This document shows, piece by piece, positions 3,123-55,545 of a stretch of DNA of 55,628 bases; the first letter of the stretch is position 1; each line of letters starts with the position of its first letter. This stretch comes from Acidobacteriota bacterium (GTDB taxonomy: Bacteria; Acidobacteriota; UBA6911): contig JAISUT010000045.1 of assembly GCA_031271905.1 (NCBI GenBank), forward strand, positions 1 to 55,628, in the 5' to 3' direction. Position numbers and translations under genes: made by a program. The notes beneath the pieces were generated by a model, which saw only the letters and a program-made list of their open reading frames with translations, did not search any database and was not told the origin of the DNA.

Positions 3123-3262
3123 CGGAGGCAAGCGCAAACGCATTCAAGAGCAACATTTTCGAGTATATGAACGGGACGAGGCGATACAGCATACCTGCAT
3201 ACGATGGCTGGCGATTTAGACTGCTATGGATTTGTCCCGTATAAACTCGGAAGGAGGCCGCG

Positions 3263-3904
3263 ATGGGCGGCAAGCTGTTATCCATATATGAAACGCTCTT
3301 CGCCCGTTACGGCGATTTGCATTGGTGGCCCGCGAAAACGCCATACGAGGTTGTCGTCGGCGCGGTTCTGACGCAGAACACCGCGTGGGGGAACGTCGAG
3401 AAAGCCATCGCCAATTTCGGCGGGCACCTCGCGCCCGAAACCGTAGCCGCCATGCCGGTCGAGGAGCTGGCCGAGGTTATCCGACCCTCCGGCTTCTTCA
3501 ACCAGAAAGCCGGATACCTGAAGGCCGTCACGGCTTGGTACGGGAAATACGGGTACGACGTGCCGACCGTCCAAAAGCGTCCGCTCGGCGAACTCCGGGC
3601 CGAATTGCTCGAAACAAAGGGCGTCGGCCAGGAAACCGCCGATTCGATACTGCTTTATGCGTTCGGCTTCCCGACCTTTGTGGTGGACGCCTACACCCAC
3701 CGCCTCTGCGGCCGCTACCCGGTTGAATCAGGCAAAGGATATGCGGCGGTCAAAGCGCATTTCGAGAGTGAACTGCCTGAGAGCGCGGAGGTCTACAACA
3801 ACTTCCACGCGCTCATCGTGATAAACGCGAAGGAGCATTGCAGGAAGAAGCCGACGTGCGACGGCTGCCCGCTCGGCGGCGGGTGCGGGAGGGTTGGCGC
3901 ATGA
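3263..3904 (+). CDS. HhH-GPD DNA glycosylase, endonuclease III-related (MagIII-like)
   Basis: A 213-residue base-excision repair glycosylase of the Nth superfamily. The helix-hairpin-helix is TKGVGQETADSILLYAF and the catalytic aspartate is in FVVDAYTHR. Four C-terminal cysteines (C-x5-C-x2-C-x5-C in HCRKKPTCDGCPLGGGC) suggest an iron-sulfur cluster. In E. coli Nth the hairpin carries the lyase lysine (GVGRKTA); here the equivalent stretch is GVGQETA. The protein is therefore probably a monofunctional glycosylase without AP-lyase, like the MagIII/COG2231 group. The ribosome site GGAAGGAGG precedes the ATG. It lies between a type I and a type II restriction gene, so a role tied to modified DNA is possible, but ordinary repair is equally likely. 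Confidence 0.85.
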   Translation: MGGKLLSIYETLFARYGDLHWWPAKTPYEVVVGAVLTQNTAWGNVEKAIANFGGHLAPETVAAMPVEELAEVIRPSGFFNQKAGYLKAVTAWYGKYGYDVPTVQKRPLGELRAELLETKGVGQETADSILLYAFGFPTFVVDAYTHRLCGRYPVESGKGYAAVKAHFESELPESAEVYNNFHALIVINAKEHCRKKPTCDGCPLGGGCGRVGA

Positions 3905-5042: not shown

Positions 5043-6553
5043 CAGGCAGGGAGCAGGCCCGCCTTCGCATCCAAGACGAGCTTGACAGCACGAAAACCGC
5101 CGCCGAGCGCAACAGGCTGGGGCAATTTTCCACGCCGCCCGCGCTGGCCGCCGAAATCGTGCGCTACACCGTCGCAATGGCATCCCCCCTCGGCGCGGAC
5201 GCCAAGATCCTCGAACCGTCCTGCGGGACGGGGGCGTTTTTGACCGCCTTGTGCGAATGCCCCGCCACGGCATCCTTGCCCAAGGTCGGGGTCGAACTCG
5301 CCGTTGATTTCTCTGAAGCGGCAAAAGACTTGTGGAAGGACGATGCGTGCATCGTCAACGCAGACTTCCTCGATTGGGCCGGAAGGGCCGACGACATGTT
5401 CGATCTGCTGGTGGCGAACCCTCCCTATGTCCGTCACCACCACCTGACCGCAGGGCAAAAGGCGCGTTATGGCGATTTCGCCTCGAAAGTGTGCGGGAGG
5501 CGCGTATCCGGCCTTTCGGGACTCTACGTTTATTTCATGCTCGCGGCGACGGCGCGGCTCAAGCCGGGGGCGGTCGCCAGCTGGCTCGTCCCGGCAGAGT
5601 TCATGAGCGTCAATTACGGTTCGGCGATCCGCGACTGGCTTGCGGGCGATGTGACGCTTGAGCGCATACACGCCTTTCGCGCCGACGACCTGCAGTTCGA
5701 CGACGCGCTGGTGACCTCTTGCGTGGTGACCTGCCGCAACGCCCCTCCCGCCCGCGACCATCAAGTCGCTTTTACTTTCGGCGCCAGTTTTGCCGATCCC
5801 GACGAAACGTACAACGTCCAGGTTTCGGAATTGCGCCGTTCCACGAAATGGCTGCAACGTTTCGCCCAAGCGCCCGTGGAGCCTCGAACCGGCACCGCGC
5901 TGGGACGGTGCTTCTCTATTCGCCGCGGCATCGCCACGGGAGGGAATTCGTTTTTCATCAGGCGCAGAGAGCTGTTCCATTCGTTGGGGATATCCGACGA
6001 ATTCCTTCGCCCTATCCTCCCCAGCCCGCGCCATACGCCTGTCGAAGAAATCCTTTCGGACGCGGACGGATGGCCGGCCAATGTCGAGAAATTGGCGTTG
6101 TTGGATTGCACGGGCTGGAGTTTGGAAGACCTCCCGCATCCCGTGCGGGAATACTTGCGGAGCGCCTCCCCATCGGTTTTGGAATCCTATCTGGCGCGAG
6201 GCCGCAAGCCGTGGTACGCCCAAGAGCGGCGCGAGGCCGCCCCCATCGTCTGCACCTACATGGGGCGGCGCAAGACAGCGGACGGCAGCGCGTTCCGTTT
6301 CATACGGAACCGCTCGCGGGCCATCGTCACCAATTCCTATCTGATGCTCTTTCCGAAACCATCTGCCTATCTGGCTTCGGAGGAGGATTGGCTTGACGAC
6401 GCCTGGATGCGGCTCTCCCGCGTCGCCGCGTCCGCGATGTGCGCGCAAGGTCGAGAGTATGGCGGCGGCCTCCATAAGATCGAGCCCAAGGAACTTGCAA
6501 AAGTCGCGATACCGGACCTTGAACCTATGGCAGAGCCTATGCTCTTTTATTAA
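5039..6553 (+). CDS. N6-adenine DNA methyltransferase of the XamI-like system
   Basis: A 504-residue adenine-N6 methyltransferase that protects host DNA from the endonuclease encoded just upstream. The SAM-binding motif I is EPSCGTGAF (near residue 59) and the catalytic motif IV is NPPY at residues 127-130 (LLVANPPYVRHHH). The rest is a long target-recognition half of the kind seen in TaqI/Eco57I-type enzymes. The start ATG overlaps the endonuclease stop by 4 nt (ATGA). The stop codon lies inside the first unit of a perfect 13-bp tandem repeat (6546-6571). Confidence 0.88.
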   Translation: MTGREQARLRIQDELDSTKTAAERNRLGQFSTPPALAAEIVRYTVAMASPLGADAKILEPSCGTGAFLTALCECPATASLPKVGVELAVDFSEAAKDLWKDDACIVNADFLDWAGRADDMFDLLVANPPYVRHHHLTAGQKARYGDFASKVCGRRVSGLSGLYVYFMLAATARLKPGAVASWLVPAEFMSVNYGSAIRDWLAGDVTLERIHAFRADDLQFDDALVTSCVVTCRNAPPARDHQVAFTFGASFADPDETYNVQVSELRRSTKWLQRFAQAPVEPRTGTALGRCFSIRRGIATGGNSFFIRRRELFHSLGISDEFLRPILPSPRHTPVEEILSDADGWPANVEKLALLDCTGWSLEDLPHPVREYLRSASPSVLESYLARGRKPWYAQERREAAPIVCTYMGRRKTADGSAFRFIRNRSRAIVTNSYLMLFPKPSAYLASEEDWLDDAWMRLSRVAASAMCAQGREYGGGLHKIEPKELAKVAIPDLEPMAEPMLFY

Positions 6554-42918: not shown

Positions 42919-43205
42919 GGGAAAATTTTTCACGGGGGGTGAAACCATCCCCCGTTTCCCAGCGTATACTTCTCCCCCAATTTTTTCCTTGACTGCGAAA
43001 AATATTCTGCTTTAGGATGGCACCATCTTTGGTTTGACCGTGAAAACCTGATTTGCCGATGTACCCGTTTGACGATTGGAAAGAAGTGAATGTTTTGGAT
43101 TGCCTGTTCTGACGCGCCTTTGGCGGAGAAGGGCCCCAAAGGCGCTTGTTTCTAAACTACGCTCCCGCCCTGGTCGGGAGTGTGAGCGACTGATGAGGTA
43201 CTACG
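42919..43205 (+). promoter_or_regulatory. Promoter/leader cassette of receptor gene A
   Basis: From 42980 to the start codon this differs from 47900-48125 at only 9 of 226 positions. It contains TTGACT (42989-42994), an 18-bp spacer and TAGGAT (43013-43018). A 10-bp perfect hairpin GCGCCTTTGG / CCAAAGGCGC (43114-43123, 43136-43145) and the ribosome site GAGGT follow. The predicted untranslated leader is about 180 nt. Confidence 0.8.
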
Positions 43206-46200
43206 ATGTCCCAAATGTCTAGTAGAGGGGGGGGGTATTGGTTGCTGGCGCTGTTGGCGCTGGCGCTCATGTCCCCGTCGGCGTTCGGACAGACCACCGC
43301 GTCATTGAGCGGGACGGTCGCGGACGCGTCGCAGGGCGTGCTGCCCGGTGCGACGGTGACGGCGATCAACACCGAGACCGGCGTCGAGACCACGGCGACG
43401 GCGAATAATTCGGGCGTGTACAACTTCCCGAGCTTGCAACCGGGCACGTACAACGTGAGGGCGTCCAAGGAGGGCTTCCAAGCGAAGACGACGACGGACG
43501 TGCGCCTGAGGATAGCGTCCCAAAACAACCTGCCGTTCGCGCTGGAAGTGGCGGGGACTTCCACCGAGGTGGAGGTCACGGCTTCTGCCGAGAACATGAT
43601 CCTCGAGGCCGGCGCCTCGACGGGAACCATCCTGCAAGAAGACCTGATGGCCACGTTGCCGCTGATCAGCAACGACGTGATGGATCTGGTCAACGTGATG
43701 GGCGGCGTGGTGAAGTCGGAAGACCCGATCTTCTCGAACTACACGCAGACCATCGGCGGCGTCGCCGCCGGCAACATCAACGTCCAACGCGACGGCATCT
43801 CCGTCAGCGAGGTCCGATGGGCCTCCGGCGCCGTGTCCCCGAGCCGCGTGAACCAGGAGATGGTGGGCGAGTTCAAGATGATCCTCTCCCCCGTGGACGC
43901 CGAGATGGGGCGTGGCGCGGGGCAGTTGCAGATGATCACCAAGTCGGGCGCGAACGCATTCCACGGCTCCGGCGTGTGGAACATCCAGAACACGGCGCTG
44001 GACGCCGAGGAATGGTACGTCAAGAAGAGCGGCGGCCAGTCGCCGTGGCGCAACCTGCACAACTACACGGTGACGATGAGCGGTCCGATCGTCAAGAACA
44101 AGACCTTCTTCTTCGCGACTTGGGATCACCAGATCGTCCGCGAGAAGACCCAGGTCACCTACCCGTCCCTGACCCCCTGCGCGCGGTTGGGGATCTACCG
44201 CTACTTCGAGGGCTGGAACAACCTGAACGCCAACCCGGCGAACACGGCCAGCGTCATACTCCCGGGCGCCTATCCGGGCGCAGTGCCGGCGCGCATTGCC
44301 GTGTACCAGAACCAAGACCCGGCGCAGTCGTGGTCGGATCCCAAGAACGGGTCGCCGCTGTACGAGGCTCCGGGAGGCGCCCCCGTGGGCGCGTTGCAAT
44401 ACCAGAGCGTCCTGGGTCCGCTGGATCCGGGCGCCAAGGCGCTGCTCCAAGCCGACGAGGCTCGCGGCGTATATGACTGTTCCTCGCTCCTTGGCACAGC
44501 CTACGCGCCTTCCGCGACGAACCCCCTCGGCGGGACCACCGGGACCTCCTGGGTCTCTGCGGTGAACGGCGGAGCTGGCTACAGCTACGGGGGCATCCCC
44601 ATCACGGGCGTCCGCGACGGCTGGGACGCGAGCGGGTACGTCGACCGGTTCAACCCGCTGGTGCCGCTTCCGAACTACTACAACCTCGGCGACGGCCTGA
44701 ACATCGCCGGCTACCGATGGACCCGGACGACCAAGGGGGCGAACACCGTCTACGGCACGGGCCAGGACGGCGAACGCAAGTCGATCTCCGTGAAGATCGA
44801 CCACAACATCAACAGCGCGCACCGCCTGAGCGGCACCTACAACTTCGAGCGGCTCATCGGCGAGGACGGCCAGCCGTCGTGGGACAACGGATATTCCTAT
44901 GGCGGGAACATCCTGCGCAAGCCGCAGAGCTTCACGGTGGCGCTGACCTCGACCCTGAGGCCGACGTTGCTGAACGAGTTCCGCTTCGGTTTGTCGCAGA
45001 CCTACTCGCAACGCAACGACGCCATCGACGCCAATCCTGAACTGACGGCCATCCTGTACGACCTGATGCCGACCTCGACCGCATTCCCTGTGGTGATCGG
45101 GTACGACAGCATGGGCTACACCCCCGGCATGGGGTTCGGCACCGCGACATACGGCGCCAGCCACCCCGTGGGCAACATGGCTTTGCTGGGTGACTCGTGG
45201 GGAGGCACCGACAACCGCTGGACGGCCTCCGACACGGTCACCTGGATGAAGGGCGCCCATTCGTTCAAGGGGGGCTTCGAGGTCCGGCTCTCCAAGTCGT
45301 TGCAGAACCTGAACGGCAACAGCCAGAACACCTTGTCGGGCAGCCGCCTGTTCCCGAACGTCTCGGGCGGCGCGGGCTCCACCCCTTACCTGAACACGGA
45401 GTTCAACCCTGTTCAGGTTCCGGTGGATCCGACGAATCCCTACGCCGGCACGATGCCGGATCCGACATATCCGCTTAACTGGGCGAACAACGGCATGGTG
45501 GGCGGCGAGTCTGGCAACGGCTACACCATCGCCCGCAGCTTGCTGGACTACCTCTCCGGGTCGGTCAACTCGGTCACGCAGTTCTTCTACGCCAAGCCCG
45601 ACATGACATGGAACAGTGTCGCGGCGGGCGAGAACCAGTACGAGATGGATCTGCGCGGACGCGAGTTCGCGGCGTTCTTTAAAGATGACTGGAAGATCAC
45701 CAACGACCTGACGCTGAACCTGGGCGCCCGTTGGGAATACTACGGCGTGCCGTGGGAGAACAACGGCATGACGGTGGCGCTCAAAGGCGGCAGCACCAGC
45801 ATCTGGGGCCCTTGCGGCGACGGTGCGAACATTTGGACGACGGGGGTTTCGTGTACGCCCGATCCCTCCTACGAGATCGGGTACCAGTTCGTCGGCCCGA
45901 ATTCCGACCATCCCGACATCAGTCCTTGGAACAAGGATCTGAACAACTTCGCCCCGCACGTCGGCTTTGCCTGGCAACTGCCTTGGCTGGGCAAGGGCAA
46001 GACGACCCTGCGCGGCGGCTATTCGATCAGCTACACGCCGGTCAACAACTTCGGCGGTTACGTCGGCTTCATGACCAACGTGCCCGGTGCCACCTACATG
46101 TACCAGATCGACGGCCTGACCGCCAGCAACGGCGCCAACCGGAGCCTCAACCTCCTGGATGTGAAGAACGGCGCGACGACGGGGCTCATGCCGCTGGCGG

Positions 46201-47771
46201 ATCCCGCAACCGCGCGTGGCATCGATGTGTTGGGCCCACAGGGCATCCTCAACCGCGAGAAAGCGTACAACGTCTACGACGAGAACATCCGCAACCCGTA
46301 CGTGCAGAGCTTGAACCTGTCGTTGACGCGGCAGCTCGGCAATGCGCTGACGGTGGATGTCCGCTACATCGGGACGTTGAGCCGCAAGCGCATCGCGTCC
46401 ATCAACGTCAACACGGCGAACTACCTCAACAACGGGTTGTTCGAATTGTTCGAGGCGGCCCGATACCCCGACGCGGCGGCGTCGCCGTCGGCGCTCGCGG
46501 CGCTCGCGGCGTTGTTCCCGGCGAATTCGTACTGGCCTGGCCTTGCGGGGGCGGCGCAGCTCCGGGGCAATTACGGCGTCTTGGCGAACCTGGTGTCGGG
46601 CAACTATTCAGGGTTGGCCTCTTCGTTGGCCAACGCCAACACGTTCGGCAGCATCTCGGATGGGATCAACGGCAAGCTCATGCGCAGTGCGGGCATGCCC
46701 GAGAATTTCATCATCGCCAACCCGGCTCTCGCCCCCACCGGGTCGTGGGGCGCGGCCGGCGCCGGATGGAACGCGAACATGTACAACTCGAACTACCATT
46801 CGATGCAGGCGCAGGTGACGATGCGCCCGGTGCGCGGGTTGAGCTTCCAGGCGACTTACACTTGGAGCCGGAACCTCGCAGACCAGGGGATCGTCGATTA
46901 CACCACGATGAACCACCGGTACTATCTGGACTCGATGCACCGCACGCACGCGCTGACCAGCTACGGGTCGTACGAGCTGCCGTTCGGCGCGAACGGGTTC
47001 TTGTTCCGCAACGCCACGGGCGCCTTCAAGAAGGCGATAGAGGGCTGGTCTCTAAGCTGGGTCGCATCCGCAAGCAGCGGCATCCCGATGTCGATCAGCG
47101 GCGTGAGCCGCCAGTGGGGCAACTCCGACGTGATGCTGGAGCGGCCCGACCTGTGGGACAACAAGGCGGGCAGGGTCACCGCCGATCCTGATCCGGCGAC
47201 CTACTACGGCGGGTATTTCTACGGCGACAAGTACGTCCGCGTCGAAGACCCGCAGTGCGCCATGCTGGATCCGTCGTTGTACGCCTTTTGCACCGGCGCG
47301 GCCGGCTCCTACTTCGGCATGATGAAGGCGCTGGCGCTGTCCGATCCCAGCCAGGCGGACGGCGTCGCCCGGTACGGAATCACGGCGGGGACGCCGTCGT
47401 CCTACACGTCGGCTTCCGGGTGGACGTACGGGACGGGCGATCCGGTCATCGTGTTCCGCAACCCGCTTCCCACCGAGGTGGGGAACTTCGGCCCCAACCA
47501 GTTGACGGGGCCTGGGAAGTGGAGCCTGGACATGGCGATGGCAAAGTCGATCGAGTTCATGGAGGGCAAAAAGCTCGAGATCCGCGTCGACGCCCAGAAC
47601 ATCTTCAACCATCCGCTGCCGTCCAACAGCGCGTTCCGATGGAATGCGCGGTTCACGCAGACCTATCCGCCGGAGACCACGTTGAACGCGGTGAATCCGA
47701 ACACTTTCGGCATCCTGAGCAGCAAGGGCGGCCACCGGACGTTCCAGGCGAAGATCCGCCTGAGCTTCTAA
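43206..47771 (+). CDS. TonB-dependent receptor-like outer-membrane protein A (carboxypeptidase-regulatory type)
   Basis: A 1521-residue outer-membrane protein. After a leader with a poly-Gly run coded by nine G (MSSRGGGYW), a signal peptide ends at SPSAFGQ. A carboxypeptidase-regulatory beta domain follows (ASLSGTVADASQGVLPGATV, NNSGVYNFPSLQPGTYNVRA). The plug-like region contains GNINVQRDGISVSEVRWASG and DAEMGRGAGQLQMITKSGA. The remainder is a large barrel ending KIRLSF, with the terminal Phe needed for barrel insertion. Family members take up large substrates or act in surface functions. ATG 43206 has GAGGT 7 nt upstream. A paralogue follows directly. Confidence 0.92.
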   Translation: MSQMSSRGGGYWLLALLALALMSPSAFGQTTASLSGTVADASQGVLPGATVTAINTETGVETTATANNSGVYNFPSLQPGTYNVRASKEGFQAKTTTDVRLRIASQNNLPFALEVAGTSTEVEVTASAENMILEAGASTGTILQEDLMATLPLISNDVMDLVNVMGGVVKSEDPIFSNYTQTIGGVAAGNINVQRDGISVSEVRWASGAVSPSRVNQEMVGEFKMILSPVDAEMGRGAGQLQMITKSGANAFHGSGVWNIQNTALDAEEWYVKKSGGQSPWRNLHNYTVTMSGPIVKNKTFFFATWDHQIVREKTQVTYPSLTPCARLGIYRYFEGWNNLNANPANTASVILPGAYPGAVPARIAVYQNQDPAQSWSDPKNGSPLYEAPGGAPVGALQYQSVLGPLDPGAKALLQADEARGVYDCSSLLGTAYAPSATNPLGGTTGTSWVSAVNGGAGYSYGGIPITGVRDGWDASGYVDRFNPLVPLPNYYNLGDGLNIAGYRWTRTTKGANTVYGTGQDGERKSISVKIDHNINSAHRLSGTYNFERLIGEDGQPSWDNGYSYGGNILRKPQSFTVALTSTLRPTLLNEFRFGLSQTYSQRNDAIDANPELTAILYDLMPTSTAFPVVIGYDSMGYTPGMGFGTATYGASHPVGNMALLGDSWGGTDNRWTASDTVTWMKGAHSFKGGFEVRLSKSLQNLNGNSQNTLSGSRLFPNVSGGAGSTPYLNTEFNPVQVPVDPTNPYAGTMPDPTYPLNWANNGMVGGESGNGYTIARSLLDYLSGSVNSVTQFFYAKPDMTWNSVAAGENQYEMDLRGREFAAFFKDDWKITNDLTLNLGARWEYYGVPWENNGMTVALKGGSTSIWGPCGDGANIWTTGVSCTPDPSYEIGYQFVGPNSDHPDISPWNKDLNNFAPHVGFAWQLPWLGKGKTTLRGGYSISYTPVNNFGGYVGFMTNVPGATYMYQIDGLTASNGANRSLNLLDVKNGATTGLMPLADPATARGIDVLGPQGILNREKAYNVYDENIRNPYVQSLNLSLTRQLGNALTVDVRYIGTLSRKRIASINVNTANYLNNGLFELFEAARYPDAAASPSALAALAALFPANSYWPGLAGAAQLRGNYGVLANLVSGNYSGLASSLANANTFGSISDGINGKLMRSAGMPENFIIANPALAPTGSWGAAGAGWNANMYNSNYHSMQAQVTMRPVRGLSFQATYTWSRNLADQGIVDYTTMNHRYYLDSMHRTHALTSYGSYELPFGANGFLFRNATGAFKKAIEGWSLSWVASASSGIPMSISGVSRQWGNSDVMLERPDLWDNKAGRVTADPDPATYYGGYFYGDKYVRVEDPQCAMLDPSLYAFCTGAAGSYFGMMKALALSDPSQADGVARYGITAGTPSSYTSASGWTYGTGDPVIVFRNPLPTEVGNFGPNQLTGPGKWSLDMAMAKSIEFMEGKKLEIRVDAQNIFNHPLPSNSAFRWNARFTQTYPPETTLNAVNPNTFGILSSKGGHRTFQAKIRLSF

Positions 47772-48125
47772 AGGCACCCGCCGCAGAAGGGGCGCGGTGA
47801 GCCGCGCCCCGCAAGGCGATGCAAAGCAGGCAAACCACAGGCTCCCAGGGCACCGGGGGCCTGTTCCCGTTTCAGGAGGCGGTGATTTGCGCCGGGGGGA
47901 TTTTTTCCTTGACTGCGAAAAATATTCTGCTTTAGGATGGCACCATCTTTGGTTTGACCGTGAAAACCTGATTTGCCGACGTACCCGTTTGACGATTGGA
48001 AAGAAGTGAATGTTTTGAATCGCCTGTTCTGACGCGCTTTTGGCGGAGAAGGGCCCCAAAGGCGCTTGTTTCTAAACTACGCTCCTGTCCTGGTCGGGAG
48101 TGTGAGCGACTAATGAGGTGCTACA
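47772..48125 (+). promoter_or_regulatory. Terminator of gene A and promoter/leader cassette of receptor gene B
   Basis: Hairpin GGGGCGCGG-TGAG-CCGCGCCCC lies at 47789-47810. A terminator-like stem ACAGGCTCCC / GGGGGCCTGT follows at about 47837-47864. From 47900 the cassette seen before gene A is repeated: TTGACT 47909-47914, TAGGAT 47933-47938, hairpin arms 48034-48043 and 48056-48065. One stem pair is G-U here, so the helix is kept. Confidence 0.8.
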
Positions 48126-51100
48126 ATGGCTCGAATGTCTAGTAGGGGGGGGGGGGGGATGTGTGGTTGCTGGCGCTGTTGGCGCTGGCGCTCATGTCCC
48201 CGTCGGCGTTCGGACAAGGTTCCTCCGCCACTTTGGGCGGGACTGTCCAAGACGCCTCGTCGGGTGTCTTGCCCGGCGCATCCATCACGGCGATCAACGT
48301 CAACACCGGCGTTGAGACCAAGACGACCGCCAACAACTCCGGCATCTACAATTTCCCAAGCCTGCAACCCGGCACCTACAACATCACCGCGGAAGCGCCG
48401 GGATTTCAAAAAGCCGTCAAGACGGACGTGCGGCTGGGCGTAAGCGCCCAGGCGCGCCTGAACTTCGACATGGCCGTGGCGGGCAGCTCGGAGACGGTGG
48501 AGGTCACCGCCACCGCCGAGAACATGGTGCTGGACGCCGGTTCCTCGACGGGGACCGTGCTGCAGGAGGAGATGGTCAACGAGATCCCGTTGCTGAGCAA
48601 CAACGTCATGGACTTGATCAACATGATGGGCGGCGTGGTCGCGGGCGACGACCCGATCTTTGGCGGCGGCAACCAGACTTTCGCCGGCGTGACGGCCGGA
48701 AACATCAACGTCCAGCGCGACGGCATGTCGGTCAGCGAAGTCCGCTGGGGTGCTGGCGTCACCTCCTCGACCAACATGAACACCGAGATGGTGGGCGAGT
48801 TCAAGATGATCCTCTCCCCCGTGGACGCCGAGATGGGGCGCGGCGCCGGACAGGTGCAGATGACGACCAAGTCCGGTTCCAACGCCTACCACGGCTCCGC
48901 GGTCTGGAACATCCAGAACACCGCCTTGGACGCGCGCGAATGGCTCGCCAAGAAAAACAATTTGGAACCCACTTGGCGCAACCTGAACAACTACATGTTG
49001 ACGGCGAGCGGGCCGATCATCAAGAACAAGACGTTCTTCTTCGCGACCTGGGATCACCAGATCTTCCTTGAGAAGAGGCCGACGATCACCAAAGTGCTCA
49101 CCCCGTGCGCGCGCAAAGGAATCTACCGCTACCTCTCGGGCTGGAACCCGGACAACTCCGGCGCCACGGCCGATTTCACCAGCTACACCCGCCCGAGCGT
49201 GGATGAGAACGGCACGCCGTTGGCAGGAACGGTCAGCGTGTGGAACCCCAGTGCGAACAACTACCAGAACGTCACCTCCTCGCTGAAGTACATGAGCGTG
49301 TTCGGCGACTTGACGGGCACGCCCGCCGAGGCGGCGCTCCTTGCCGCAGGCACGGGCCCCACGGGCTTGTACGGCGACTGTTCCGCGATGGACGCCTACT
49401 TCGACCCGATGAGCGGGAGATTCGGAGTCCAGGGGGAGGGAGCGGGGTCTAACCCATACACGGCCTCATCCTACTGGGGTGGCAATTTCAGTACGGGCGG
49501 CGCCTACCGGTACGCTTTCGACCCTACGGGGTACGTGAACCGGTTCACTTACGGCACCTCTTACAGCGGCGGCACCGTCGTCATGCCTCCCGCGAACTAC
49601 TACGCCTTCGGCGACGGTTTGAACTACGCGGGTCACAAGTGGAACATGGTGTTCCACGGCGACGGTTCGATCTACGGAACGGGCGGCGACCCGTCGCGCA
49701 AGTCGATCACCGCCAAGATCGACCACCAGATCAACAACGAGCACCGCATCAGCGGCACCTACACTTGGGAGAAGTATTACGTCGAAGACAACTACGCGCA
49801 ATGGCCTAAGGAGTACGGCGGTTACGGCGGCGGCATCGACCGCAAGCCGCAAAACCTGATAATCTCCCTGACGTCCACGTTGCGTCCGACGTTGCTGAAC
49901 GAGTTCCGCTTCGGGCTGTCGCGGTCGGACACCATGACCAACACGGCGTTTTCCGGCAAGGACGGCAACGATGTGAAAGACCTCTTGAGCAAGCTGTTGC
50001 CGACCGACTCCAGCACCTCGTTCGCAGGCACGCCGTTCCAAGACCAGTACATGCTCCTCAGCACGGGCACGGCGCCCCTGCTCTTCAGCACGGACGCGGC
50101 GCAGGACGCCTATTACAGCACGGGCTCCAACACGGCGAGCCATCCTTTCGGCAGCCGCGGCAACATCCCGACGGGGTGGGGCGGTCTGGATCCGCGCTGG
50201 ACGTTCAACGACACCGTGACCTGGATGAAGGGTGCGCACTCCTTCAAGGGCGGCGTCGAGGTGCGCATCCAGTCCTCCAGGCAGGACTATATGGGCAACC
50301 GCGACTTTGGGGGCAACGGCGCGTTCGTCGCCCTGCCAGTGGTCGTCGGCGGCACTACGTCGGCGATGACCTCCCGCCGCGCAGGCGCCCTGTCCACCGT
50401 GATGCCTGCGGCGGATGTCGCGCCCAACAGCCACGACACGGCCATGGCAACCGATGGGAACTACAAGACGGCATACGCCCTGATGACCTACTTCTCAGGC
50501 TCGCTCAACCGGATCCGGCAGTATTTCTACGCGACCGGGCCGAATCAATGGAACGACGCCTACACCAAGGGGGAGGACATCTATTCCTACCAGATGAACA
50601 ACAGGGAGTTCAGCGCCTTCTTCAAGGACGACTGGAAGCTGACCAACGACCTGACGCTGAACCTCGGCGTCCGCTACGAATATTACGGCGTGCCCTACGT
50701 CCCCGGAGGCAAGACGCTCGGCCTGCCTGACGGCGGCATGAGCATATTCGGCATCACGCAAGGCGGGTGGAAGAACTGGATGACTGGCAGGCAATATGTC
50801 ACCGGCGACCCGACCACCCTCTATCAGACCGCCTTTGAATACGTCGATAGCGCGTGGAACAAGGATCTGAACAACTTCGCGCCGCACGTCGGTTTCGCCT
50901 GGCAGTTGCCTTGGCTGGGCAGGGGCAAGACCACGTTGCGAGGCGGCTACTCGATCAGCTACACGCCGGTGAACAACTTCGACCAGTACGGCATCTGGAT
51001 CGCCGCCAACGGCGGGGCCAACACCGACTATGTGGAAGTCTACACCGGCACCAGCGCCGGTTTTACACCCGCCATCGGCGACACCAACTACTACATGGAT

Positions 51101-52720
51101 CTCACGGATCTGAGTACGGTGGACTCGACCGGGCGGCGCATCCTGCCTATGCAGGTGACCGGGGGCATCTCCGCGCTGTCTCCGAAAAAGGTCGGACAGT
51201 TCAGCGGCTATCCCGTCGCGGTGGACGAGAACGTGCGGAACCCATACATCCAGAGCATCAACTTGTCTTTGACGCGCAACTTCGGCAACGCGCTGACGGT
51301 CGATGTCCGCTACATCGGGACGTTGAGCCGGAAGGCGATCGCCACGGACAACATCAACCAGCCGAACTACATCAGCAACGGTCTGTACGCGGCGCTGGAA
51401 GATGTTCGCCAAGGTCATTCCAATCCTTTGATCAACAGCTTGATCACTGTGGGTTCTCTGGGTGCTGCGGGAAGCGTGGACGGGTCGGACGAGCTGAGGA
51501 AGTCGTTTTTCACCGCCACCAGTCTCGCCAGGGGCGATTTCAACACTGTCGCCAACACCTTGACGTCAACCAACGGCTACCTGTTTGATCCCACCGATCC
51601 GTCTGCCCAAGGCTTGGTTCTCCGCAACGGATGCCTGCCCGAGGATCGCGTGGGCGGCGTATGCACGAAATCCACCCCGTGGAATTACATCACGGCGAAC
51701 CCGCAGTTCTCCAACTACTACGCGCAGTTGGTGCACAATGCGGTTAAAACCAACTACCACTCGATGCAGGCGCAGGTGACCCTGCGGCCGACGCGGGGGC
51801 TCAACTTCCAGGCGACCTACACCTGGAGCCGGAACCTGGGCGACTCGGCGTGGACGAACCTGCTCGGTGCGCGCGACTACCAGTTGAGCGCCCAGCACCG
51901 TTCCCACACGCTGAACACCTACGGATCGTACGAGCTGCCGTTCGGGGCGAACGGGTTCATATTCCGCAACTCCTCAGGGTGGTTTAAGAAGGCGGTCGAG
52001 GGATGGTCGTTGAGCTGGGTGGGTTCCGTGTCGAGCGGGCAACCGTACAGCCTCACTGGGAGCAACACGCTCTGGTCGAACTCCTACCCCGTCCTTGAGC
52101 GTCCCGACCTGTTCGACAGCAAGGACGGCCATGTGACCTGGGACAACGAGGGCAACGCCGGATACTACTTCGGACAGAAGTACACCAACTATGCTCTCGA
52201 CACCAGGATCTGCGACGCATCCCGCATGGATGCGACGTTGTACAGCTCCTATTGCACCTTGACGACGGGTGGCCCGCGCGTGTTGGCGCTGGCATCCGGA
52301 GTGCGCGACGCCAACGGCAACATGCTTCCCGCCGTCTATCAAAACGGCGAAGGCGCGCCGTACGGTCGCGCCGACGGCGAGCCGATCGTGGTGTTCCGCA
52401 ACGCCGACCAGCGGTTGGGGGCGGATGCCATGGGCAACTACAAGGGCTACCAGTTGACCGGCCCGGGCCGGTGGAGCCTCGACATGGCGATGTCCAAGTC
52501 GATCGAATTCATGGAGGGGAAGAAGTTCGAGATCCGGGTGGACGCCCAGAACGTGTTCAACCACCCGATGCCGTCCAACGCCACCAGCATCAGCGCGACG
52601 GCGAACCGGTTTACGGCGATCTCCAACCCGACCGGCACCATCAACTCCGGCACCTTCGGCTACCTCGCCTCCAAGGGCGGGCACCGGACGTTCCAAGCGA
52701 AGCTGCGGTTGAGCTTCTAA
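48126..52720 (+). CDS. TonB-dependent receptor-like protein B, start separated from body by a G14 tract (phase-OFF as given)
   Basis: The body, read from 48161, is a paralogue of receptor A with the same domains: signal peptide WLLALLALALMSPSAFGQ, carboxypeptidase-regulatory domain, plug with DAEMGRGAGQVQMTTKSGS, and barrel ending KLRLSF. The start equivalent to that of gene A is ATG 48126 with the same leader. Between them lies a run of 14 G (48145-48158), which puts ATG 48126 out of frame with the body; 15 or 12 G would restore it. As given, translation from 48126 ends after 105 residues at 48443. A GTG at 48161 could start the body directly, but has only the G run as a ribosome site. Alternatives are a sequencing error in the run, or slippage by RNA polymerase. 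Confidence 0.85.
48145..48158 (+). repeat. Homopolymeric G14 tract, candidate phase-variation switch
   Basis: Fourteen consecutive G begin seven codons after ATG 48126, inside a block otherwise about 96% identical to gene A, where the equivalent run is nine G and in frame. Such tracts gain or lose units during replication. Confidence 0.85.
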
Positions 52721-52788
52721 CCGGAGGCGTCCGGTAGGGGATGCGGTTTCCGCCGCGCCCCCGAAGCCGGAATCAGTGCAAGCAAGCC

Positions 52789-52820
52789 AACAGGCTCCCA
52801 GGGCATCGGGAGCCTGTTTC
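52789..52820 (+). terminator. Intrinsic terminator of receptor gene B
   Basis: A perfect 11-bp stem AACAGGCTCCC / GGGAGCCTGTT (52789-52799, 52808-52818) with an 8-nt loop. The flanking AGCAAGCC and the stem recur almost unchanged at 54923-54964 and, more loosely, near 47825-47864. Confidence 0.85.
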
Positions 52821-52950: not shown

Positions 52951-53943
52951 ATGAAAAACAAACTTATCACGCAAATCCAGGCGCGCATGGCGTCGATGCT
53001 CGACGCGGCGCAGATGGCGGAACTGCGGAGGGTGCTCTCCCACAGCCTCCATGACGTGGAGGTGACGGAAAAGAAGTCCGCCGTGGAACTGGAGGCAGGA
53101 GAGAACGAAGGGATGTTGAAGGTGTTCATCTCGGCTAAACGGGTCGAGGGTTGTTCCGAGAGGTCGCTCCGGTATTATGGCGCGAGCATTCGGCAGATGC
53201 TCGGCAGCATGGACAAGCCGGTTCGGGAAATCGGCACGGACGACCTGCGCGCCTACCTTGCCGACTACCAACAGGCGCACAACGCCGGCAAAGTGACGGT
53301 TGACAACATGCGCCGCATCTTCTCCAGCTTCTTCGGCTGGCTTGAGGACGAGGACTGCATCCTGAAAAGCCCCGTGCGTCGCATTCACAAGGTGAAGACG
53401 GACAAGACGATCAGGGACACGTTCAGCGACGAGGGGGTGGAGATGTTGCGCGACGCCTGCGAGGAGCTACGCGACTTGGCGATGATCGACTTGTTGGTGT
53501 CCACGGGGATGCGGGTCGGCGAGATGGTGCGGCTCAACCGCGAGGACATCAATTTCCACGAGCGGGAGTGCGTGGTGTTCGGCAAGGGCAACAGCGAGCG
53601 GATGGTCTACTTCGACGCCCGGACGAAAGTACACCTGATGAACTACCTCGATGGCAGGCGCGACGCCTGCCCCGCGCTTTTCGTGTCGCTGTCCGTCCCG
53701 CACGCGCGGTTGCGGATCGGCGGCGTGGAGGCGCGTCTCCGTGGGATCGGCAAACTGGCGGACATGCAGAAGGTGCATCCGCACAAGTTCCGGCGCACGC
53801 TTGCCACGCGCGCCATTGACAAGGGTATGCCCATAGAGCAGGTGCAGCGCCTGCTCGGCCATGTCAGGATCGACACGACCATGCACTATGCGATGGTCAA
53901 CCAAGTCAACGTGAAGAACTCGCACCGGAAGTTCATCGGGTGA
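52951..53943 (+). CDS. Tyrosine recombinase (XerC/XerD-like integrase)
   Basis: A 330-residue site-specific recombinase. An N-terminal SAM-like core-binding domain (about residues 50-135) leads into the catalytic domain, with Arg in STGMRVGEMVRLN, Lys in VFGKGNSERMVYF, the H-x-x-R box in HPHKFRRTLATRA, His in LLGHVRIDTT and the nucleophile Tyr in TMHYAMVN. All catalytic residues are present, so it should be active. GGAGGG precedes the start. It lies between receptor gene B and the third receptor-type start, away from any dif-like site I could identify. It may rearrange this locus or be the remnant of a mobile element. Confidence 0.92.
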   Translation: MKNKLITQIQARMASMLDAAQMAELRRVLSHSLHDVEVTEKKSAVELEAGENEGMLKVFISAKRVEGCSERSLRYYGASIRQMLGSMDKPVREIGTDDLRAYLADYQQAHNAGKVTVDNMRRIFSSFFGWLEDEDCILKSPVRRIHKVKTDKTIRDTFSDEGVEMLRDACEELRDLAMIDLLVSTGMRVGEMVRLNREDINFHERECVVFGKGNSERMVYFDARTKVHLMNYLDGRRDACPALFVSLSVPHARLRIGGVEARLRGIGKLADMQKVHPHKFRRTLATRAIDKGMPIEQVQRLLGHVRIDTTMHYAMVNQVNVKNSHRKFIG

Positions 53944-54930: not shown

Positions 54931-54964
54931 ACAGGCTCCCGGCACGCCGGGGGCCTGTTTTTTT
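54931..54964 (+). terminator. Intrinsic terminator after the DUF3782-like gene
   Basis: ACAGGCTCCCGG pairs with CCGGGGGCCTGT (one G-U) and is followed by seven T. It belongs to the same hairpin family as the terminators after the receptor genes. Confidence 0.85.
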
Positions 54965-55545
54965 GCGTGAGACCGCCGCTCTGCCAACTGCACCTCATAC
55001 GACATACGGCACGACGCAGCAATGGCGCGGCTTGCCGAGGTGCGGTGTGCCCCCCTGTCCCTCCCTATCCCTCGCATCCATCCCCCCCCGTCCCGGTTGC
55101 CGGAGGCCGCCGCCCGCCCGGGGTCGTCTTTGGCGGGGCGGCGCTCGTGAGACAAACGGCGGTTTGTAGCAGGGGCGGGATTGGGGGCGACCATGGGGCA
55201 GAAGGCTTGGAATGTAAGGCTGCCGGAGGGCGCCTCCGCCGCGCGAGGAGAATTTTGAGTGCTCGTAAATACTTGTAATCTCCGCTATTACGCTAATGTT
55301 CGCAAAAAGTTTCATATTTTTTTCTTGACTCGTTTGAAATCTCCCGATTAAGATTGCCAGCGTCTTTGTGTCAAGCCATGCGGCAAACGGGTGCGACAAA
55401 CGCCGGTTTGCCGCCGGGGCTTGGCGACGCCGCCGGGGAAGAAGGGCCCCGCGCTTGGCGGAGCGAGGAACCCTCTCCCGCCCTGGGGGGAGAGACAGAG
55501 GCCTATGTGCCGGGGATGGAATAAGCGCCCCGGCGAGGAGAGAGA
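54965..55545. other. Long intergenic region before a third receptor-type gene
   Basis: No gene is seen. Two short inverted repeats built on ACAAAC/GTTTGT and CAAAC/GTTTG lie at about 55152 and 55396. A promoter with the receptor geometry is at 55325-55354 (TTGACT, 18 bp, TAAGAT). The stretch GAAGGGCCCC at about 55441 is also present in the leader hairpin loops of genes A and B. GAGGAGAGAGA precedes the start codon at 55546. Confidence 0.6.
55325..55354 (+). promoter_or_regulatory. Promoter of the third receptor-type gene
   Basis: TTGACT (55325-55330), an 18-bp spacer and TAAGAT (55349-55354) have the same -35 and spacing as the promoters of genes A and B, also preceded by a T run. The rest of the leader is different. 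Confidence 0.6.

Follow-up and report, generated by a model that had tools for sequence, protein, structure and literature searches.

A G14 tract at the 5' end of an Acidobacteriota outer-membrane receptor gene as a candidate translational phase-variation site

The window analyzed here, 55,628 nucleotides long, comprises the entire contig C9 of a 67-contig draft genome of an Acidobacteriota bacterium, which amounts to 3.4 Mb with a GC content of 63% and a completeness of 99.8%. It carries two receptor genes, A and B, in tandem and in the same orientation, both of which contain a CarboxypepD_reg domain and an OMP_b-brl_4 barrel according to Pfam. The features of the two genes are as follows.

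43206 to 47771, forward strand: gene A, the paralogous receptor, with its ATG at 43206 and in frame with a G9 tract at 43227–43235
47901 to 48225, forward strand: 5' block of gene B (promoter, leader, and signal peptide), near-identical to the gene A block at about 42981–43290
47909 to 47938, forward strand: sigma-70-like promoter TTGACT-18-TAGGAT inside the shared 5' block, with identical letters upstream of gene A
48115 to 48119, forward strand: Shine-Dalgarno-like GAGGT, 6 nt before the ATG at 48126 and conserved before the gene A ATG
48126 to 48443, forward strand: frame from the ATG at 48126 as assembled, a 105-aa dead-end product (putative OFF state) with its stop at 48443
48145 to 48158, forward strand: G14 tract, the proposed slippage site, 19 nt past the A of the ATG at 48126
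48161 to 52720, forward strand: gene B body, a CarboxypepD_reg and OMP_b-brl_4 receptor of 1519 codons without a stop, counted from the GTG at 48161

Gene A is read continuously through its G9 (MSQMSSRGGGYWLLALLALALMSPSAFGQ). The assembled frame from the ATG of gene B begins MARMSSRGGGGMCGCWRC, and the receptor ORF of gene B lies in another frame. The G14 thus constitutes a G/C homopolymer of at least 8 within the gene B ORF near its 5' end, and frame computation revealed that gain or loss of units at this tract toggles between the full-length frame and a premature stop; any tract length divisible by three joins the ATG at 48126 to the receptor frame. The initial annotation, which held that the tract shifts gene B and that adding one G or removing two restores the protein, is borne out by this arithmetic. 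The receptor ORF encodes 1519 amino acids.

The gene B product contains an N-terminal carboxypeptidase-regulatory-like domain (PF13620, 3.4e-20) and a C-terminal outer-membrane beta barrel (PF25183, 3.2e-104). For the A and B receptors, Pfam reported no separate family for a TonB-dependent plug, and a sequence-based search for relatives of the receptor with solved structures found none. With both domains in A and B and multiple receptor paralogs in the genome, the two genes resemble the Oar-like, TonB-dependent-type receptors, whereas the leaders of the other genomic paralogs are ordinary and contain no G tract. The closest paralog to the gene B body is located on contig C64 (64% identity), with a dN of 0.28 and a dS of 0.62 between the two. 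Because no further stop or shift was found in the 1519 codons scanned and dN is lower than dS against the C64 paralog, the receptor frame of gene B appears to be kept by selection. A protein scan of genome contigs returned only one distant locus, from an Acidobacteria MAG, with an amino acid identity of 45%.

The 5' blocks of A and B are 93% identical over the aligned stretch and 97–100% identical upstream of the start region, and the signal-peptide codons 3' of the tract are the same in both genes. The promoter pattern was found once, against a mean of 0.0 (sd 0.2) in shuffled sequences. In both paralogs, the tract is positioned between the conserved Shine-Dalgarno/ATG and the signal peptide. 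The proposal that gene B has the leader, start, and signal peptide of gene A thus stands, but the number of G residues is not the sole difference, as the tract flanks also differ (AGA-G9-TAT in A and AGG...-ATGTG in B), with a net difference of five bases. In contrast to the 5' blocks, the bodies of A and B share an amino acid identity of only 52%, and the gene B body is nearer to the C64 paralog, which has a different leader; the sequence comparison therefore indicates that A and B have in common a promoter-leader unit that was copied or converted not long ago. No Rfam match to a structured RNA was found at the leader. Comparison of tract length in related genomes had been suggested as a check, and conservation of the tract was not borne out: the G tract is absent from the other gene B paralogs of the genome and from the relatives in the genus, and a conserved tract was rejected.

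The two copies of the 5' block (42981–43290 and 47901–48225) are direct repeats 4.9 kb apart; if they recombined, gene A would be lost and the gene B body would be left with the same promoter. A tyrosine recombinase gene of the phage integrase family follows immediately after receptor B, at 52951–53943 of the window, and is surrounded by a 39-nt imperfect inverted repeat (52779–52817 and 54931–54969); the recombinase gene and the repeat may represent a mobile unit or terminators. An invertible promoter operated by this neighboring recombinase was considered and rejected, as A and B point in the same direction and the 5' block is not flanked by any strong inverted repeat.

A pattern search across the genome detected 55 G/C tracts of at least 10, including 32 of 10, nine of 11, and 14 of 12–21, with 10 tracts reaching at least 14. 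A third-order Markov chain fitted to the window and used to simulate 3.4 Mb served as the chance model and produced 36 tracts of at least 10, two of at least 12, and none of at least 14. Tracts of 10–11 are thus near the chance level, whereas those of at least 12 are in clear excess. Nine relatives in the genus contain 0–2 tracts of at least 12 each, counts that may be too low since these assemblies are more fragmented, and those of their tracts that were read are mostly located at contig ends. Among 25 genomes of the class with a completeness of at least 90%, only one other genome has more tracts of at least 12. Within the class, genome G025 carries 33 tracts of at least 12, frequently clustered closely together on both strands. 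At five loci of relatives (L174, L176, L178, L175, and L127), runs of 14–36 G or C stand exactly at contig ends, which are probably assembly breaks or read artifacts. The G14 of gene B itself is longer than expected by chance and longer than in the relatives. In a codon-usage scan, every clearly coding tract of 10–11 was in frame on both sides, indicating that frame loss starts only at the lengths where slippage or miscounting begins. A defect in mismatch repair was rejected as the cause of the long tracts; mutS (mutS1) and mutL are complete, and a mutator state therefore does not explain them.

Roughly one in two of the long tracts falls between genes or at the end of a contig. The other tracts of at least 12 in the genome are listed below.

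C37, 64162 to 64174, 13 units: methyltransferase gene beside a polysaccharide flippase; tract in mid-gene, frame shifted
C51, 2153 to 2165, 13 units: hybrid histidine kinase gene; tract between the receiver and HPt domains, frame shifted and HPt cut off
C48, 29566 to 29580, 15 units: repeat-rich autotransporter-like gene; G15 in frame
C64, 64383 to 64394, 12 units: ArsR regulator gene; G12 at the N-terminus, in frame, shortly before an internal ATG
C62, 65440 to 65457, 18 units: MalT/LuxR regulator gene; tract at the 3' end
C10, 15374 to 15389, 16 units: G16 on the strand of a two-partner-secretion exoprotein gene, which begins a few hundred bases downstream
Remaining tracts: three on C18 in repeated DNA and one on C42, all intergenic; those on C15, C43, and C50 at or near contig ends

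Homologs of the methyltransferase in the relatives G005 and G009 (49–51% identical) are uninterrupted and have no homopolymer. The C48 gene has no Pfam domain, and its name rests on sequence character; the C10 exoprotein gene encodes a TPS domain and YDG domains. Changes in the length of the C62 tract would alter the C-terminus of the regulator. In the intergenic repeat of C18 (within C18:1–14000), the two copies have G18 and G17, respectively, at corresponding positions (3229–3246 and 5986–6002), so tract length differs between copies, and a further G14 (3271–3284) is located near one of them. Tracts of 13–14 coincide with shifted frames in three genes (gene B, the C37 methyltransferase, and the C51 kinase), as expected from slippage and from length errors alike. 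By count of genes rather than by formal enrichment, this single genome holds several tract-bearing surface and regulatory genes (C37, C48, C51, C62, C64, and C10), which makes a phase switch at gene B more credible than the window alone does.

Judging from the sequence, gene B is probably one of several translational phase-variation (contingency) loci in the genome that operate by slipped-strand mispairing. Transcription would start from the promoter common to gene A, and translation from the ATG at 48126 would run through the G tract, where slipped-strand mispairing at replication would add or remove G units. With a tract length that is a multiple of three, the complete outer-membrane receptor would be made, its signal peptide having a basic n-region (ON); any other length would lead to a dead end (OFF), as with the 105-aa product of the assembled G14. 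The shorter G9 tract would make gene A the stable in-frame sister. The ON/OFF switch put forward by the initial annotation is therefore matched by the anatomy of the locus and gains credibility from the genome-wide long tracts, while switching itself, in the sense of length variation in the population, use of the ATG at 48126, and a change of receptor level, is an inference from the sequence. Against a phase switch, the tract is not conserved among paralogs or relatives, and no mismatch-repair defect is present that would explain fast slippage. A bolder reading is that the genome has a true phasome, in which about seven loci (receptor B, the autotransporter-like adhesin, the polysaccharide-locus methyltransferase, the upstream region of the TPS exoprotein, the hybrid kinase, ArsR, and MalT/LuxR) would switch independently through G/C tracts of 12–18, including switching of the HPt output domain of the kinase, with mismatch repair intact; we regard this joint proposal as tentative and somewhat doubtful. 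The mixed locations of the tracts in surface genes, regulatory genes, and intergenic DNA are likewise consistent with a simple accumulation of G runs in this genome, as opposed to selection for switches.

Expression of gene B might be independent of the tract if translation started at the GTG at 48161, which is in the receptor frame, with the G run serving as the Shine-Dalgarno sequence and the tract forming a harmless 5' leader. By established base-pairing rules, the CCUCC anti-Shine-Dalgarno sequence could bind a run of G, and the G12 of the C64 ArsR gene likewise stands shortly before an internal ATG. However, the start at GTG 48161 would deprive the signal peptide of its basic n-region (MWLLALLALALMSPSAFGQ), whereas basic residues precede the hydrophobic stretch in the leaders of the paralogs, which points to the ATG at 48126 as the better start. 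The conserved GAGGT and ATG upstream, together with the lack of a start codon in gene A at the place matching GTG 48161, also speak against this alternative, and we consider it quite unlikely. The assembled length of the G14 may be miscounted by one unit or several, and in the extreme case the tract would have a fixed in-frame length that was miscounted in assembly, with gene B always expressed. The tract length comes from a single assembly, several long tracts here and in the relatives lie close to or at the ends of contigs, the least reliable parts of an assembly, and the shifts at tracts of 13–14 in three separate genes are what random length errors would give. The G14 of gene B, however, lies 7.5 kb inside its contig with unique flanks, and an in-frame tract of a length near 14 would still be prone to slippage, being as long as tracts that switch in Campylobacter (PMC6321876) and Neisseria (PMC3786947). 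We regard such a constitutively expressed gene B as unlikely.

Two further explanations carry still less weight. Once the 5' block had been copied from one gene to the other, a one-off expansion of the tract could have left gene B recently broken, as the recent common 5' block on bodies of 52% amino acid identity suggests that B was possibly rearranged lately, and the other paralogs are without the tract. Nevertheless, the absence of any other stop or shift in the 1519 codons argues against decay, and a tract of such length is expected to revert readily, meaning that a shift there alone would not be a stable knockout; we find a broken gene improbable. Slippage of RNA polymerase or the ribosome on the G run would instead provide some in-frame product in each cell, so that the tract would determine how much receptor is made and not act as an on/off switch. 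Homopolymers of at least 8 are known sites of transcriptional realignment, but A or T runs rather than G runs are typical (PMC3711429), and with no specific sign of such slippage here, this explanation on its own is highly improbable, although transcriptional or ribosomal slippage could act together with phase variation.

Translational phase variation of gene B, if it takes place, would have close parallels. The haemoglobin receptors HmbR and HpuAB of Neisseria meningitidis are switched ON or OFF by frame through a poly-G within the ORF (hmbR and hpuA), with recorded tract lengths from about 9 to over 15 (PMC3786947). Gene B likewise has a poly-G within an outer-membrane receptor ORF but differs in receptor family, ligand, and phylum; moreover, variation and phenotype were measured in Neisseria, whereas gene B is known from sequence alone. 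In Campylobacter, G or C tracts of at least 8 already mediate switching and multi-gene poly-G phasomes occur (PMC6321876), and in the homopolymer-associated genes of Helicobacter canadensis, changes in the length of 3'-end tracts alter the C-terminus (PMC2823697). As in these two systems, several genes of the present genome carry tracts, situated at the 5' end, in the promoter, or near the 3' end. However, the tracts in Campylobacter are mostly 9–10, compared with 12–21 here at a GC content of 63%, where tracts of 10–11 are about as frequent as chance predicts, and variation was demonstrated at the read level in Campylobacter and Helicobacter canadensis, while the tracts here are known from one assembly. 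Homopolymer tracts have been put forward as a general means of regulation among prokaryotes (PMC2831843). No report of phase variation for Acidobacteria was found in the open-access literature searched, which does not prove its absence. The novelty originally claimed for gene B therefore has to be narrowed: poly-G switching of receptors is already known from HmbR and HpuAB (PMC3786947), and only the lineage and the receptor subtype look new within the literature searched.

For annotation, tract-bearing genes of this kind get called broken or mis-started in single assemblies. Simple-repeat phase variation has been studied mainly in animal pathogens and commensals. If the present interpretation is true, switching by long G tracts would extend to bacteria that perhaps face phages, grazers, or shifting nutrients rather than immunity.
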